The notes under the pieces are model-generated. The model saw only the letters and a program-made list of their open reading frames with translations, was not told the DNA's origin and made no database searches. 64,000 nucleotides of DNA from Bacteroidota bacterium (lineage in GTDB: Bacteria > Bacteroidota > Bacteroidia > B-17B0 > Aurantibacillaceae), in contig JAUXZS010000050.1 of the NCBI GenBank assembly GCA_030692515.1, forward strand, positions 1 to 64,000, read 5' to 3'. Position numbers and translations under genes: made by a program. Below are positions 20,915 through 34,162 of this stretch, piece after piece. How positions within the stretch are numbered: position 1 is the first letter of the stretch; each line of letters begins with the position of its first letter.

Positions 20915-22081
20915 TTACTTTAAAGCTTGTAATAAATCATTTAAAATATCTTCTTTATTTTCTAAGCCAATTGAAACACGAATTAAACCTGGGGTAATTC
21001 CTACAGTTAGTCTTTCGGCCTCACTTAGTTTACAATGAGTGCTTGAAGCCGGATGCGTAACAATACTTCTTGCATCACCTAAGTTTGGAGAAATTTTTAT
21101 CATTTGTAATTTGTCTAAAAATAGTTTCGCAGCTTCATACCCTCCTTTAACAGTAATGGTTATAATGCCTCCTCCAGCTTTCATTTGTTTTTTTGCGATG
21201 TTATAATTTGGATGTGAAGGCAAAAAAGGATAAGATACATTTTCTAATTTTGAATTCCCTTCTAATGCCTTTGCAACATGAAGAGCGTTTTCGCAATGTC
21301 TATCCATTCTTAAGGCTAAGGTTTCTAAACTTTTGCTTAATACCCATGCATTAAATGGACTTAAAGAAGGACCGGTTAATCTTCCGAATAAATAAACATC
21401 ATTTATCAATTCTTTTTTTCCAACAACAACGCCTCCTAAAACTCTTCCTTGGCCATCCATGTATTTTGTAGCAGAATGAATTACCAAATCTGCGCCATAT
21501 TTAATTGGTTGTTGCAGATAGGGTGTAGCAAAACAATTATCTACAATTAAAAGTAAGTTATGCTTTTTTGCAAGAGCACCTACTACTTCTAGGTCAATTA
21601 ATTCTATTGCAGGATTTGTTGGCGTTTCTAAATAAATAAATTTCGTTTCAGGCTTAATTAATTTTTCAATTTCGATAACATTATTCGTATTAAAATAGGA
21701 ATAGGAAATATTCCATTTTGGAAAATACTTTGTAAACACAGCGTGGGTTGCTCCAAAAACTGAAGAACAAGAAATAACATGGTCTCCTGATTTTAAGATA
21801 GACATGAATGTTGTAAATATTGCCGCCATACCCGTTGCAGTTGCAAAACCGGCCTCAGCTCCTTCAAGTAAACATACTTTATTAATGAACTCGCTAGTAT
21901 TTGGGTTCACATATCTTGAATAAATATATGCATCTGATTCATCATTAAAAGCAGCACGCATATCTTCTGCTGTATCAAAAATAAAACTTGATGTTAGATA
22001 TAATGGAGTAGAGTGTTCATTATTCTCACTGCGTTCCATTTGTGCTCGGATAGCCTGAGTTTCGAAATGTTTGTTTTTCAT
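20915..22081 (-). CDS. metZ: O-acyl-homoserine sulfhydrylase (Cys/Met metabolism PLP enzyme)
   Basis: It probably joins sulfide to O-acetyl- or O-succinylhomoserine to give homocysteine. The 388-residue fold-type I PLP protein shows the Cys/Met enzyme signature around the cofactor lysine, HSATKYMDGQGRVLGG, with the MDGQGR wording of the MetZ subgroup. EGAEAGFATATGMAAI and ETPTNPAIELID are also present. The metX gene in this window makes O-acetylhomoserine most likely. Cystathionine gamma-synthase is the main alternative, but the neighbouring sulfide-producing genes favour direct sulfhydrylation. Confidence 0.85.
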   Translation of the reverse strand: MKNKHFETQAIRAQMERSENNEHSTPLYLTSSFIFDTAEDMRAAFNDESDAYIYSRYVNPNTSEFINKVCLLEGAEAGFATATGMAAIFTTFMSILKSGDHVISCSSVFGATHAVFTKYFPKWNISYSYFNTNNVIEIEKLIKPETKFIYLETPTNPAIELIDLEVVGALAKKHNLLLIVDNCFATPYLQQPIKYGADLVIHSATKYMDGQGRVLGGVVVGKKELINDVYLFGRLTGPSLSPFNAWVLSKSLETLALRMDRHCENALHVAKALEGNSKLENVSYPFLPSHPNYNIAKKQMKAGGGIITITVKGGYEAAKLFLDKLQMIKISPNLGDARSIVTHPASSTHCKLSEAERLTVGITPGLIRVSIGLENKEDILNDLLQALK

Positions 22082-31117: not shown

Positions 31118-32371
31118 TTAATTATTGATTAATACTTTTTCTTTAATTTCTATTTTATTTGTTTTTTTAGTATTCAGGCTAATTTTATCAGTTACCAAAG
31201 AAATGAATAATTTGTTTTTTAAGATATAGTCACGATTGGTTAATAGTGTTTGGAGATTTACTTTTCCAACAATATAATTATAGTCGCCACTGTTGTACTT
31301 TTCTGTAATCTCATCGAAAGTTATTTTTTCAATATCAGATTTTGAATTGTATCTGAAGTACACTTCTATAAAAACATCGTTAGTAAAATCAGACGCGTGC
31401 TTTTGAATATGTTTTTTAAATTCATATTTATAGCCGTGAGATAAAGCTGAAATGTCTGAAAGTACAGCCGCTCCAGTAGGATAACTACCTGCGCCTCTAC
31501 CTTGTAAAAATTGCTCACCCGAAAATTTACCTTCAACAATAACACCATTAAATTCATTTTCCACATTGTAAAGTTGATTGGTTTCTTTTACAAAACTTGG
31601 AGCAACTATAATGCCAACTTTATTATTTTCTAAACGCTGAATAACAGGAGTTAGTTTTATTTTGTATCCTTTTTCTGATGCATATTTTATATCGTTTTCG
31701 TGTAAGGTAGTAATGCCAATATTAAAAACATCTTCTGGTTTTATTATTAATCCAAATGCATGTAATGCAATTATTATCGCTTTAAATTTCGGATCAAACC
31801 CTTCAACATCATTTGTAGGGTCACTTTCTGCAAAACCTTTTTCTTGAGCTTGTTTTAAGGCAACAGGGTACGATAATTTTTCGTTAATGGTTTTTGTTAA
31901 GATATAATTTGTTGTTCCGTTAAATATACCAGATACTTTTTCTAATTCTTCATTATCAAAATATTCTTCAAGCGTTCTGATAATTGGAATACTGCCACCA
32001 GCTGATGCTTCATATAATAGAGAAACGTTATTTTTTTGTTGAAGATCGTATAACTCTTCTAAGTGAATGGCTAACATTTTTTTGTTTGCTGTTACAACGT
32101 GCTTTCCTTTTTTTAAGGCTTCACTAACAATATTAAAGGCCTCATCTGCATCATCAATTAATTCAACAATCACATCAATTTCAGGATCATTTAAAATAAC
32201 TGATTTGTCAAACGTAATAAGGTCTTTTGAGACACTTCTGTCTTTAGTTTTATCTTTCACTGCAATTTTTACAATATCTGCTTTAAAGCCCGTGCTGTTG
32301 TTTAACACATAGTATAAACCCTGGCCAACACAACCAAATCCGAATAATCCTATTTTTAATTTCTTTGCCAT
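31118..32371 (-). CDS. hom: Homoserine dehydrogenase
   Basis: It reduces aspartate semialdehyde to homoserine, the precursor of methionine and threonine. The 417-residue monofunctional enzyme begins LKIGLFGFGCVGQGLY (NAD(P) loop). It has VTANKKMLA, the catalytic EASAGGSIPIIRTL and the signature NGTTNYIL, then ESDPTNDVEGFDPKFKA. A C-terminal tail of about 90 residues occupies the place of an ACT domain but is not clearly one. It follows metX in the same unit. Confidence 0.94.
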   Translation of the reverse strand: MAKKLKIGLFGFGCVGQGLYYVLNNSTGFKADIVKIAVKDKTKDRSVSKDLITFDKSVILNDPEIDVIVELIDDADEAFNIVSEALKKGKHVVTANKKMLAIHLEELYDLQQKNNVSLLYEASAGGSIPIIRTLEEYFDNEELEKVSGIFNGTTNYILTKTINEKLSYPVALKQAQEKGFAESDPTNDVEGFDPKFKAIIIALHAFGLIIKPEDVFNIGITTLHENDIKYASEKGYKIKLTPVIQRLENNKVGIIVAPSFVKETNQLYNVENEFNGVIVEGKFSGEQFLQGRGAGSYPTGAAVLSDISALSHGYKYEFKKHIQKHASDFTNDVFIEVYFRYNSKSDIEKITFDEITEKYNSGDYNYIVGKVNLQTLLTNRDYILKNKLFISLVTDKISLNTKKTNKIEIKEKVLINN

Positions 32372-32390: not shown

Positions 32391-33455
32391 TTAGTTATTA
32401 GTTTTTTGTAAATTAAGTTTGTCTTTTTTTGTTTTTTCTTTTTTGTAGTAATCAGAAATTACTTTTGTAAGTTTTTCTGTTTCAATTAAAAATCCGTCAT
32501 GCCCATAATCAGAATCTATTTCAGAATACGTTGCATTAGCAATATGTTTTGCTAAATATTTTTGTTCAGTTGTTGGAAACAAAATATCTGTAGCAACTCC
32601 AATAACCAATGTGTTTGCCTTTATTAATTTTAAAGCTTGTTCTTTAGTTTCAGTTCTATTTCTTGCAACGTTGTGACTATCCATAGCATCCAACAAACGC
32701 ACATATGAATAAGCGTTAAAACGATTCACTAATTTTTCGCCTTGGTAACGTTGATAAGAAGCAGAAGCATAATTAGTTGTTTTATTGTAGTTCTCATCTT
32801 TTTGTGTGTTATCATAAGCAGAGTATCCTCTGTAACTTAATAAGGCAATACTTCTTGCGGCTGATAATCCTTTTTTAGCTGCATCTTCTGTATTTGAATA
32901 ATACGTTCTATCAGCTTTAATGGCTAAACGTTGCGATTCGTTAAATGCAATTCCCCATGGAGAATGTTGCGCATTGGTCGCAATTAAAATTAAATTTTCA
33001 GTTAATGCCTTATTTTCTAATGCCCATTCCATTGCAATTTGTCCACCTTGCGAACCACCAATGAGTGTGTGAATTTTATCAATCCCTAAATGATTTTTTA
33101 ATAGTTCAAATGAGGCAGCAATATCTTTAATTGTTATTTGCGGAAAATAATTAAACCAGGCTTCTTTAGTTTCAGAATTCAAACTTAAGGGACCTGTAGT
33201 GCCGTAACAAGAGCCTAAATTATTTGCACACACAATAAAATAATCATTTGGATTGTAAAGACTGTTTTCTCCAAACAATCCATTCCACCAATCAAAAACA
33301 TTACTGTTTGCAGTTAACGCATGACAAACCCAAACTACATTGTTGCGTTCTTTATTTATTTTACCAAATGTTTGATAGGCAATATCAATTCCTGGAAGAG
33401 ATTGACCATTTTCTAATTGAAAACGTTTTGAATATTTAAAGGTAGATAAACTCAT
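32391..33455 (-). CDS. metX: Homoserine O-acetyltransferase
   Basis: MetX activates homoserine for sulfhydrylation. The 354-residue alpha/beta hydrolase has the nucleophile elbow GGSQGGQIAMEWA, an acid in GVATDILFP and His in DYGHDGFLIE. Length and motifs are typical. Family members may be acetyl- or succinyltransferases, and this call is by overall similarity. It lies downstream of the SAM riboswitch, the Cys/Met leader and a 78-codon gene. Confidence 0.93.
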   Translation of the reverse strand: MSLSTFKYSKRFQLENGQSLPGIDIAYQTFGKINKERNNVVWVCHALTANSNVFDWWNGLFGENSLYNPNDYFIVCANNLGSCYGTTGPLSLNSETKEAWFNYFPQITIKDIAASFELLKNHLGIDKIHTLIGGSQGGQIAMEWALENKALTENLILIATNAQHSPWGIAFNESQRLAIKADRTYYSNTEDAAKKGLSAARSIALLSYRGYSAYDNTQKDENYNKTTNYASASYQRYQGEKLVNRFNAYSYVRLLDAMDSHNVARNRTETKEQALKLIKANTLVIGVATDILFPTTEQKYLAKHIANATYSEIDSDYGHDGFLIETEKLTKVISDYYKKEKTKKDKLNLQKTNN

Positions 33456-33473: not shown

Positions 33474-33710
33474 TTAGTTATTAAATATTGTTCCAGAAAA
33501 AATGAGTTGCTTTTTTTCTTGCGAGCTTAAAAGATTTACTTCATCAACTAATCTAGTAATGTGTATAGGAATAATATTGAAAGGGAATGCGCCCCCTCTT
33601 TGTTCTATTCCAAATTCAACTTGAATTTCTAAAAAGTTGCGGTGACTTTGGTCGCCTATTAAATTTTCGCTTATTACTGTGTTTGTATATTTTGATTTAT
33701 TGTTTTTCAT
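33474..33710 (-). CDS. Small uncharacterised protein at the head of the met operon
   Basis: The 78-residue product has no recognised domain. It begins with polar residues, then has a strand-like stretch FLEIQVEFGIEQRGGAFP and a helical end VDEVNLLSSQEKKQLIF. It has no Cys and no Met apart from the initiator, which is unusual and fits a protein meant to be made when sulfur amino acids are scarce. It is the first gene after the leader ORF and lies 18 bases before metX. Confidence 0.65.
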   Translation of the reverse strand: MKNNKSKYTNTVISENLIGDQSHRNFLEIQVEFGIEQRGGAFPFNIIPIHITRLVDEVNLLSSQEKKQLIFSGTIFNN

Positions 33711-33786
33711 GATTCAAGGTTTTAATGATTTTATAAAATTGAAATTAGAGATGCTTTGATCTAATCTTAGAGCGCATCAAATATTG

Positions 33787-33833
33787 CCCTGGTTTGCCAA
33801 GGTTAATTTTTCCAATAAAAATTTGAGGAAAAA
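33787..33833 (-). promoter_or_regulatory. Hairpins after the Met/Cys leader ORF
   Basis: TTTTTCC (33827-33833 read on minus) pairs with GGAAAAA (33807-33813), 7 pairs with a 13-base loop, beginning 4 bases after the leader stop. Next CCTTGG (33797-33802) pairs with CCAGGG (33787-33792), 6 pairs around CAAA with one G-U. Neither has a strong T-run, though the second is followed by CAATATTT. They are candidates for the expression platform. Confidence 0.5.
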
Positions 33834-33837
33834 TAGC

Positions 33838-33957
33838 TTAGCACATGCAGCAACAGCAGCACATACAACAAGCCATCATTAAAAACTGAGGATTGATTAA
33901 GGTTATTGAACCCTTTAAATTTGTTTTGTTTTGTTTTTTTGATTCCGTGTGTTTCAT
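33838..33957 (-). CDS. Met/Cys-rich leader peptide downstream of a SAM riboswitch
   Basis: A 39-residue ORF starts 10 bases after the riboswitch P1 helix and ends M-M-A-C-C-M-C-C-C-C-C-M-C. Eight Cys and four Met codons fall in the last 13. The N-terminal part is Lys/Asn/Thr rich and has no Cys or Met after the start. The concentration of sulfur amino-acid codons just before metX and hom strongly suggests translation-dependent control. This is a second sensor in series with the SAM aptamer. Confidence 0.85.
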   Translation of the reverse strand: MKHTESKKQNKTNLKGSITLINPQFLMMACCMCCCCCMC

Positions 33958-33966
33958 TTTTTCTAT

Positions 33967-34102
33967 TTTTAATTTATTTTCCTCCGTTTTTCATCGGAGT
34001 AGGAGTTGGCACCTGTTTTCCAATCTCGGTTTATTGAGACTTTTAGTTGGTTGCCAGTGGGTCAGTGAGCCTATTCTCTCGCCACTTCTTAATAAATTAA
34101 AA
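33967..34102 (-). promoter_or_regulatory. SAM riboswitch, SAM-I (S-box) type
   Basis: P1 is a perfect 12-pair helix, TTTTAATTTATT (34091-34102) with AATAAATTAAAA (33967-33978). Between its arms lie the S-box core words GACCCACTGGCAACC and AGGTGCCAACTCCTAC. A P3-like hairpin (CCAA..TCTC/GAGA..TTGG) and a P4-like CTCCG/CGGAG hairpin are also present. It precedes metX and hom. Downstream there is no obvious rho-independent terminator competing with P1; instead a Met/Cys leader ORF follows at once. The exact SAM-I or SAM-I/IV subclass needs a covariance model. Confidence 0.88.
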
Positions 34103-34129
34103 CACACAATGGGTGGTTTTAATCTGCGA

Positions 34130-34162
34130 CAAATTTAATACATTTATTTTTACACTTCCAAA
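34130..34162 (-). promoter_or_regulatory. Candidate promoter of the met operon
   Basis: TTTG (34159-34162), 21 bases, then TAAATTTG (34130-34137), a perfect TAnnTTTG, lie just upstream of the riboswitch P1 arm. This fits the Bacteroidota promoter consensus and would start the transcript about 20 bases before P1. Confidence 0.7.

Follow-up and report, generated by a model that had tools for sequence, protein, structure and literature searches.

A SAM-I aptamer abutting a Cys/Met-rich leader ORF upstream of metX and metY in Bacteroidota suggests SAM-gated, ribosome-read sensing of sulfur amino acids

The stretch of DNA analyzed here (the window; 64,000 nucleotides of contig JAUXZS010000050.1 from a Bacteroidota bacterium) carries on its reverse strand an aptamer placed 5' of the methionine/SAM genes metX and hom, followed by a short leader ORF (Table 1). 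An earlier note, made from the DNA letters alone, had read the aptamer as SAM-I type. Using cmscan, we obtained a full-length RF00162 match with an E-value of 4e-14, whose score of 69.4 bits lies above the curated gathering score of 44.4, and its identity as a SAM-I aptamer is certain; from its sequence, it would be expected to bind SAM. The 12-pair P1 helix put forward in the note can form, the Rfam match ending 4 pairs before the full helix. The 39-codon ORF that the note placed about 10 bases behind the aptamer was likewise recovered, with its AUG 9 nt past the extended P1. It encodes the 39-aa peptide MKHTESKKQNKTNLKGSITLINPQFLMMACCMCCCCCMC, which ends in MMACCMCCCCCMC.

Table 1. Features of the metX-hom leader region in the window, in 5' to 3' order of the transcript.
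Feature	Position (strand)	Details
Bacteroidota-type promoter, putative	34130..34162 (-)	TTTG 34162-34159, 21 nt, TAAATTTG 34137-34130; read from sequence
P0, anti-P1 hairpin	34094..34125 (-)	34125-34113 with 34107-34094; 3' arm overlaps P1 5' strand; predicted fold
Extended P1	33967..34102 (-)	34102-34091 with 33978-33967, 12 pairs
SAM-I aptamer (RF00162)	33971..34098 (-)	69.4 bits, full length
Cys/Met leader ORF	33838..33957 (-)	39 codons + stop; Cys/Met run = codons 27-39
Hairpin directly 3' of leader stop	33807..33833 (-)	33833-33827 with 33813-33807; comparable hairpin in relatives (by eye)
Hairpin CCTTGG/CCAGGG	33787..33802 (-)	predicted; closest relatives by eye
Hairpin GATGC/GCATC	33750..33778 (-)	predicted
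78-aa ORF	33474..33710 (-)	first gene after leader, before metX; no NCBIfam or Pfam match
metX, homoserine O-acetyltransferase	32391..33455 (-)	NCBIfam TIGR01392, E 4.8e-102, 341.6 bits, below curated cut-off 500
hom, homoserine dehydrogenase	31118..32371 (-)	NF004976 above cut-off; PF00742

The note had placed aptamer and leader before metX and hom. Both genes do lie downstream, and to this the 78-aa ORF between leader and metX has to be added. Neither the leader nor the 78-aa ORF matched any family in an NCBIfam and Pfam search, and a homologue of the latter sits between leader and metX/metY in 11 of the 12 leader loci of the own genus, the window included. The hairpins reported after the leader ORF are predicted by folding: 261 nt including the post-stop hairpins fold with -52.6 kcal/mol (z -2.7), and 2 of 200 shuffles fold equally well. 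In agreement with the statement that no standard terminator follows the aptamer, we found no terminator-like site between the window aptamer and the next reverse-strand ORF. The source genome has a second SAM aptamer, with a sub-threshold score of 32.9 bits, before metH (L002, G000:C41:231035-231127), and this one has no leader.

To describe how the arrangement is distributed, we read 193 aptamer loci. RF00162 matches were present in 39 of 41 genomes (the source genome and 40 relatives), and the genomes beyond the own genus are a sample picked to cover families. One wider RF00162 search contributed loci for its best 30 matches, 20 of them from family f33, and from the 208 genomes matched in the wider search 64 were picked by family; among the picked genomes, the second matches of G186 and G043 and the matches of G053 and G171 were left out. 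For two truncated loci (L011, L016) the aptamer end was assumed. An ORF was counted as a leader if its ATG lay -12 to +30 nt from the aptamer end and if its last 14 residues included 3 Cys or more; four ORFs with a GTG start (L148, L149, L156, L166) were counted only if GTG was allowed.

By this rule, 23 of 93 metX/metY aptamers are followed by a leader, compared with 0.46 on average and never more than 3 when the DNA behind the aptamers was dinucleotide-shuffled 100 times. Sorted by target class, leaders stand behind 10 of 25 metX and 13 of 68 metY aptamers, behind none of the 62 at metH, the 15 at metB/metC-like genes and the single one at hom, and behind 2 of 22 others. The difference between metX plus metY and metH has a Fisher p of 3e-6, a value that ignores relatedness. 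The note had made its case depend on the ORF recurring behind homologous riboswitches of related genomes, and it does recur: in the own genus a leader follows all 12 metX/metY aptamers found and none of the 24 metH aptamers. In other families of the same class, metX/metY leaders were counted in f2 (1/1), f15 (3/5), f18 (5/6) and f25 (2/2), while the metX/metY aptamers of f20 (0/3), f21 (0/15), f22 (0/5) and f26 (0/1) have no such leader, 0 of 24 together; in other classes of the phylum it was seen at 0 of 43 metX/metY loci, 20 of the 43 being from f33. The arrangement occurs in at least six sampled families (f1, f2, f15, f18, f22 and f25).

In the Rfam-derived set, genes other than metX and metY also lie behind leaders. 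They encode a PAPS reductase (L125 and L156), an amino-acid permease (L148), a TonB receptor (L176), a luciferase-like monooxygenase as second gene (L166) and an OsmC-like protein ahead of metY (L184), and several of the non-metX/metY targets would fit sulfur supply. Two genomes of family f25 (G205, G111) have several leader-bearing SAM aptamers each (L148, L149, L156, L166, L176, L177, L181). The genes behind their Cys leaders, four of which have a GTG start, include those for an amino-acid permease and a TonB receptor as well as an operon with a luciferase-like monooxygenase, possibly genes for the uptake of sulfur sources.

We also scanned one genome each of 84,980 species with a pattern consisting of the aptamer core, a gap, WATAAA, a gap and TGYTGYTGY, which does not require an ORF. 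The scan yielded at least 118 stretches, of which 80 loci are listed. Among these 80 matches, 77 are Bacteroidota by title and taxonomy, two are titled 'bacterium' only and one is from Macrococcus; the Macrococcus match has no leader ORF. The taxa among the matches listed include Pedobacter, Mucilaginibacter, Pontibacter, Fulvivirga, Chitinophagales, Saprospiraceae, Cyclobacteriaceae, Crocinitomicaceae and others. An in-frame open ATG at -12 to +20 of P1 that leads into the Cys run was present in 77 of the 80 matches listed (shuffles: mean 2.1, maximum 6); the P1 end of these named loci was set by sequence pattern and not by the covariance model, and the start position is not preselected by the scan. 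The first recognized gene in the 80 matches listed is metY in 57, metX in 5 and a 78-aa type ORF in 5, with no reference gene in 13. In L194, L230 and L241, the Cys leader is separated from metY by a short ORF that looks ferredoxin-like by eye. The aptamer-leader arrangement is widespread in Bacteroidota, at metX/metY and at some other genes. The earlier note, which called it unusual, was mistaken about its frequency, though at metH it was found at 0 of 62 loci.

After removal of four exact duplicates from 107, we compared 103 distinct leaders. Not in this set are L196, whose first in-frame ATG lies at +74, and L229 and L269, which have no leader. Cys accounts for 42.2% and Met for 10.1% of the last 14 residues of the 103 leaders, the figures for the remainder being 0.9% and 1.0%; Cys content is preselected by the scan pattern or the leader rule, whereas Met content and stop proximity are not. 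Cys is the final codon before the stop in 74 of the 103, and the last Cys lies 0-2 codons from the stop in 100. The leader ORF is conserved at the amino-acid level in relatives. The residues of its Cys/Met run are not constant in number or order (CCCCMC, CMCCCC, CCPCC, CCCCCC), with no fixed spacing motif seen on inspection, and its N-terminal part differs between clades. Indels among relatives' leaders are multiples of 3 in 37 of 53 cases, pN/pS of the non-Cys codons is 0.64, and TGT and TGC are exchanged in 98 of 473 aligned Cys pairs, pairs that are not independent of one another. The amino acid is thus retained and the remainder free to drift, as is the case in leader peptides. The bare DNA string TGYTGYTGYTGY has 68 sites in the source genome, overlapping ones counted, and we rejected the idea that it is unique; since the string is common, the evidence lies in the position and conservation of the ORF. 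At three loci (L145, L103, L111) the ORF at the leader position has few or no Cys codons, that of L145 being Met-rich; these ORFs are possibly decaying or re-tuned leaders.

The leader start lies close to the helix that closes the aptamer. Across 30 leader loci, 0-25 nt (median 6.5) separate the extended P1 from the leader start. The outermost Rfam pair is formed in 27 of these 30 loci, and one position past the Rfam helix pairs in 27 of 30 as well, with 5 pair types; shuffles give 17.1 in both cases. In 14 clade representatives the same two positions pair in 13 and 12 (shuffles 8.9 and 7.3). Beyond one extra P1 pair, leader loci show no clear pairing excess. One of the 30, L089, has a leader by a loose rule only (GTG start, +25) and is a questionable case; leaving it out gives 27 and 26 of 29. 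At the outermost Rfam pair and the next position there is no excess at metH loci (17/62 against 17.2 in shuffles; 14/62 against 14.7) or at metB/C loci (5/15 against 5.6; 6/15 against 6.2). Leaderless metX/metY loci are intermediate, with 35/70 and 29/70 against 25.1 and 21.9. We therefore rejected the idea that a longer P1 is confined to leader loci and regard it as a property of metX/metY aptamers that is most pronounced in those with a leader behind them. That the P1 helix depends on the ligand is carried over, by analogy, from the SAM-I family.

Upstream of the aptamer, the predicted P0 hairpin would compete with P1. For the P1 5' strand, mean pairing with the RNA ahead of it is 0.62 at leader loci compared with 0.37 in shuffles (p 1.7e-5), and 0.53 compared with 0.40 in 60 named loci. 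Such pairing is not enriched at metH (0.29 against 0.33), leaderless metX (0.38 against 0.39) or metB/C loci (0.21 against 0.22), and it is weakly enriched at leaderless metY (0.43 against 0.35, p 0.001). P0 is not universal, as 30% of the 30 leader loci have a score no higher than 0.5, and in the alignments its P1 side is near-invariant within clades, which leaves covariation there unreadable. Of 89 leader loci, 67 (shuffles 5.4) have the motif TANNTTTG, which we take to be the consensus of the Bacteroidota -7 box, at 10-80 nt ahead of P1, and in 63 of the 67 loci having the box its distance to P1 is at least 28 nt. At metH, 34 of 62 loci have the box and in 28 of these 34 it lies 15-21 nt ahead of P1. 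The longer distance would thus leave room for P0 in leader transcripts, and mostly none in metH transcripts. The start codon a few nucleotides past the switching helix, together with the competing hairpin upstream, indicates that the aptamer most likely controls the loading of the sensing ribosome. The earlier note had aptamer and leader standing in series; the order is right, and the wording understates their connection, given that the start codon adjoins the switching helix and that a competing hairpin is enriched upstream.

Less uniform is the RNA behind the leader. Within 200 nt past the leader stop, terminator-like sites occur in 12 of 103 loci, compared with 5 in one mononucleotide shuffle set, and we did not adopt an intrinsic terminator as the general output. 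A terminator-like hairpin with a T-run is present in L040 and some f25 loci. No downstream structure is common to the clades, the hairpins differing among the own genus, Pedobacter and Mucilaginibacter. RNAalifold gave covarying pairs in 0 of 8 for the own genus (13 sequences), 3 of 29 for Pedobacter (8) and 3 of 8 for Mucilaginibacter-type sequences (15); the post-stop hairpins of the latter two groups, with 3 two-sided changes each among their 29 and 8 pairs, are not the same hairpin. The Cys end pairs with downstream RNA modestly better than a control (mean z -0.65 against -0.17, p 0.0015, n=102, one of the 103 loci being left out for its short flank), and strong pairing is confined to some loci. 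At two further loci (L172, L122), aptamer, intrinsic terminator with T-run and Cys leader follow one another (by eye) in a true series layout; the L172 leader precedes a PAPS reductase gene and that of L122 a TonB-dependent receptor-like gene (by eye).

Leader RNA is rich in C and poor in G: between -100 and -40 from the stop C stands at 0.27, 0.27 and 0.22 and G at 0.13, 0.14 and 0.13, and in the 20 nt past the stop at 0.26 and 0.13. This composition would suit Rho, whose gene is present in the source genome. Since leaderless metX/metY loci have the same skew (C 0.28 and G 0.13 at 20-40 nt) and amino-acid content is a confounder, it is poor evidence for Rho, and after the leaderless comparison we demoted it to weak support; one metH bin likewise has C above G. 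The P1 extension and the C-rich, G-poor RNA of leaderless metX/metY loci may represent an older platform that either acquired the Cys leader by insertion or once had it and lost it. Tentatively, we take premature termination as the most likely output. The scarcity of terminator-like sites hints that it is perhaps Rho-dependent in many clades, and intrinsic attenuation in some clades with Rho in others is possible.

Taken together, control by two inputs, SAM and Cys/Met-tRNA, is the best reading of the locus, the tRNA input being suggested by the codon run. We propose, with moderate confidence, a SAM-gated sensor of sulfur amino acids that is read by a ribosome. In this proposal, transcription would start just ahead of P0. 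At low SAM, P0 would sequester the P1 5' strand, the A/U-rich P1 3' strand would remain single-stranded, and ribosomes would initiate at the leader AUG just past P1. At high SAM, the aptamer would close, P1 would extend up to the start codon and leader initiation would be blocked. By closing P1 against the leader start, with P0 opening the initiation region, SAM would thus gate the Cys sensor. A ribosome once loaded would translate about 38 codons, of which the last are mostly Cys and some Met. With sufficient charged Cys-tRNA (and Met-tRNA) it would run off at the leader stop, and when charged tRNA is scarce it would stall a few codons short of the stop at most. The operon, which contains metX/metY or, in some clades, cysH, permease or TonB genes, would be on when SAM is low and the ribosome is stalled. 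That this forms a hierarchical gate for sulfur assimilation that is widespread in the Bacteroidota, in which the riboswitch loads the sensor ribosome and the ribosome measures Cys/Met-tRNA at a shared junction of helix and start codon, we consider only slightly favored by the evidence.

Other explanations have to be weighed against this. The leader ribosome might choose between antiterminator and terminator past the stop, i.e., act by intrinsic-terminator attenuation, which would be compatible with SAM gating. In L184, L032, L159, L221, L260, L194 and L271, the last Cys codons and the stop can pair over an extended stretch with RNA further downstream; this agrees with it, as do the hairpins behind the stop and the terminator-like hairpins with T-run mentioned above. 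A run of codons for the pathway end products, typical of amino-acid attenuators, is clearly present (Cys 42%, Met 10% over 103 leaders), but we did not find mutually exclusive hairpins ending in a terminator. Since terminator-like sites number 12 in 103 against 5 in shuffles, the window leader has none and no alternative fold is shared, we do not file the leader as a classical intrinsic-terminator attenuator and consider this explanation rather unlikely. Less probable still are two independent switches in series, SAM acting via an unseen transcription platform of its own and the Cys leader being a separate attenuator. L172 and L122 have exactly this layout, and the P1 extension, partly common to leaderless metX/metY loci, may serve another platform. 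However, the main layout, with its median of 6.5 nt between P1 and AUG (n=30), leaves little room for a platform, and the window leader has no terminator-like site.

The peptide itself might also act, its Cys-rich end sensing metal, sulfide or thiol oxidation and thereby stalling the ribosome, or the product working in trans. There is precedent in a copper-responsive uORF (PMC9426467), and leader ends favor Cys over Met. Yet the run varies in number and order without a fixed spacing motif, the N-terminus is clade-specific and the run adjoins the stop, which fits stalling by codon, and we regard action of the peptide as improbable. A chance ORF in the leader RNA could be suspected from a pN/pS of merely 0.64 and from the frequency of the short DNA string, but leaders at 23 of 93 metX/metY aptamers against 0.46 in shuffles, at 77 of the 80 matches listed against 2.1, and at 12 of 12 in the genus exclude it in practice.

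The sign of the Cys effect is less certain at the window locus than at metY or cysH loci because the best matches of the source genome to a MetY fragment are 44% and 33% identical to it. Judged by their sequences, both may be cystathionine synthase/lyase-like enzymes, and metX may here feed a route that has Cys rather than sulfide as substrate. The 33% match, a MetY-like PLP enzyme, lies at 21785-22081 (-) of the window; it is encoded on the metX strand, about 10 kb further downstream.

Riboswitches are usually considered apart from amino-acid attenuators, as a different solution. In the open-access literature that we searched, no Cys leader was described behind a SAM aptamer. A relative is the mgtA leader of Salmonella with MgtL, where riboswitch-like ion control and a codon-biased leader ORF share one 5' region; Mg2+ and proline are the inputs there, SAM and Cys here. 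Like other members of the S box family (RF00162), the window aptamer matches the model and precedes met genes, but its P1 adjoins a leader ORF and not a terminator of its own or the start of the main gene. Leader ORFs with polycysteine are known from Mycobacterium cys operons, Propionibacterium acnes and Bifidobacterium cbs (PMC1262725; PMC9031893). In the Mycobacterium cys operons the Cys run lies near the stop without a terminator, Rho being one proposed possibility (PMC1262725), and in M. smegmatis such leaders are Cys-responsive attenuators according to a review that cites Canestrari 2020 (PMC9031893). The Bacteroidota leaders share with them the short ORF before sulfur genes and the Cys run close to the stop without a terminator hairpin (100 of 103; terminator-like sites in 12 of 103). 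The actinobacterial ORFs differ in that the cited accounts describe them for Actinobacteria and mention no riboswitch or Met component (PMC1262725, PMC9031893), and the M. smegmatis ORFs are leaderless, whereas the window ORF lies behind a complete SAM-I aptamer. In Rhodobacterales, uORFC-8-2 before cysS is a leader with Cys codons that is read as ribosome-mediated attenuation; as described, it has two tandem Cys codons, usually at positions 14 and 15, and a U-run terminator, and a riboswitch is not mentioned (PMC8632094).

Riboswitches that directly control translation of a small upstream ORF have been described in M. tuberculosis, namely the B12 switch with ppe2 (PMC11260477) and the Mbox with pe20, the latter together with Rho (PMC12810186). 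The Bacteroidota loci resemble them in that the helix adjoins the uORF start (0-25 nt, median 6.5, n=30) and shows an excess of pairing; the M. tuberculosis cases have other ligands, and the cited accounts describe no amino-acid codon run and so no second, tRNA input. A single leader RNA sensing both SAM and tRNA state is known from the Xanthomonas met operon, where SAM-I binds uncharged initiator tRNA (PMC7270179); there, the expression platform binds the tRNA directly, and that account mentions no leader peptide. Sinorhizobium metA is preceded by a SAM-II translational switch with an extra start codon and a terminator downstream (PMC9373788). It has in common with our proposal that a SAM switch acts on translation and differs in class, in the second AUG being in the metA frame and, as described, in the lack of a Cys leader. 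The cyanobacterial Downstream-peptide motif is a structured RNA directly ahead of a short conserved ORF, but it belongs to another RNA class and its description gives no amino-acid codon run (PMC2864571). Cys leaders and riboswitch-controlled uORFs are thus known separately; new, against the literature searched, is that the two sensors are joined at one helix in a conserved manner.

In the Bacteroidota, one 5' region joins a riboswitch and an amino-acid leader in conserved order. The arrangement accompanies genes through which sulfur enters Met and Cys, and we did not see it at metH of these genomes. It might explain aptamers that have no visible expression platform, like that of the window. 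As a natural case open to testing, it would show a riboswitch acting directly on the translation of a sensor peptide. It suggests how Bacteroidota may balance SAM against Cys.
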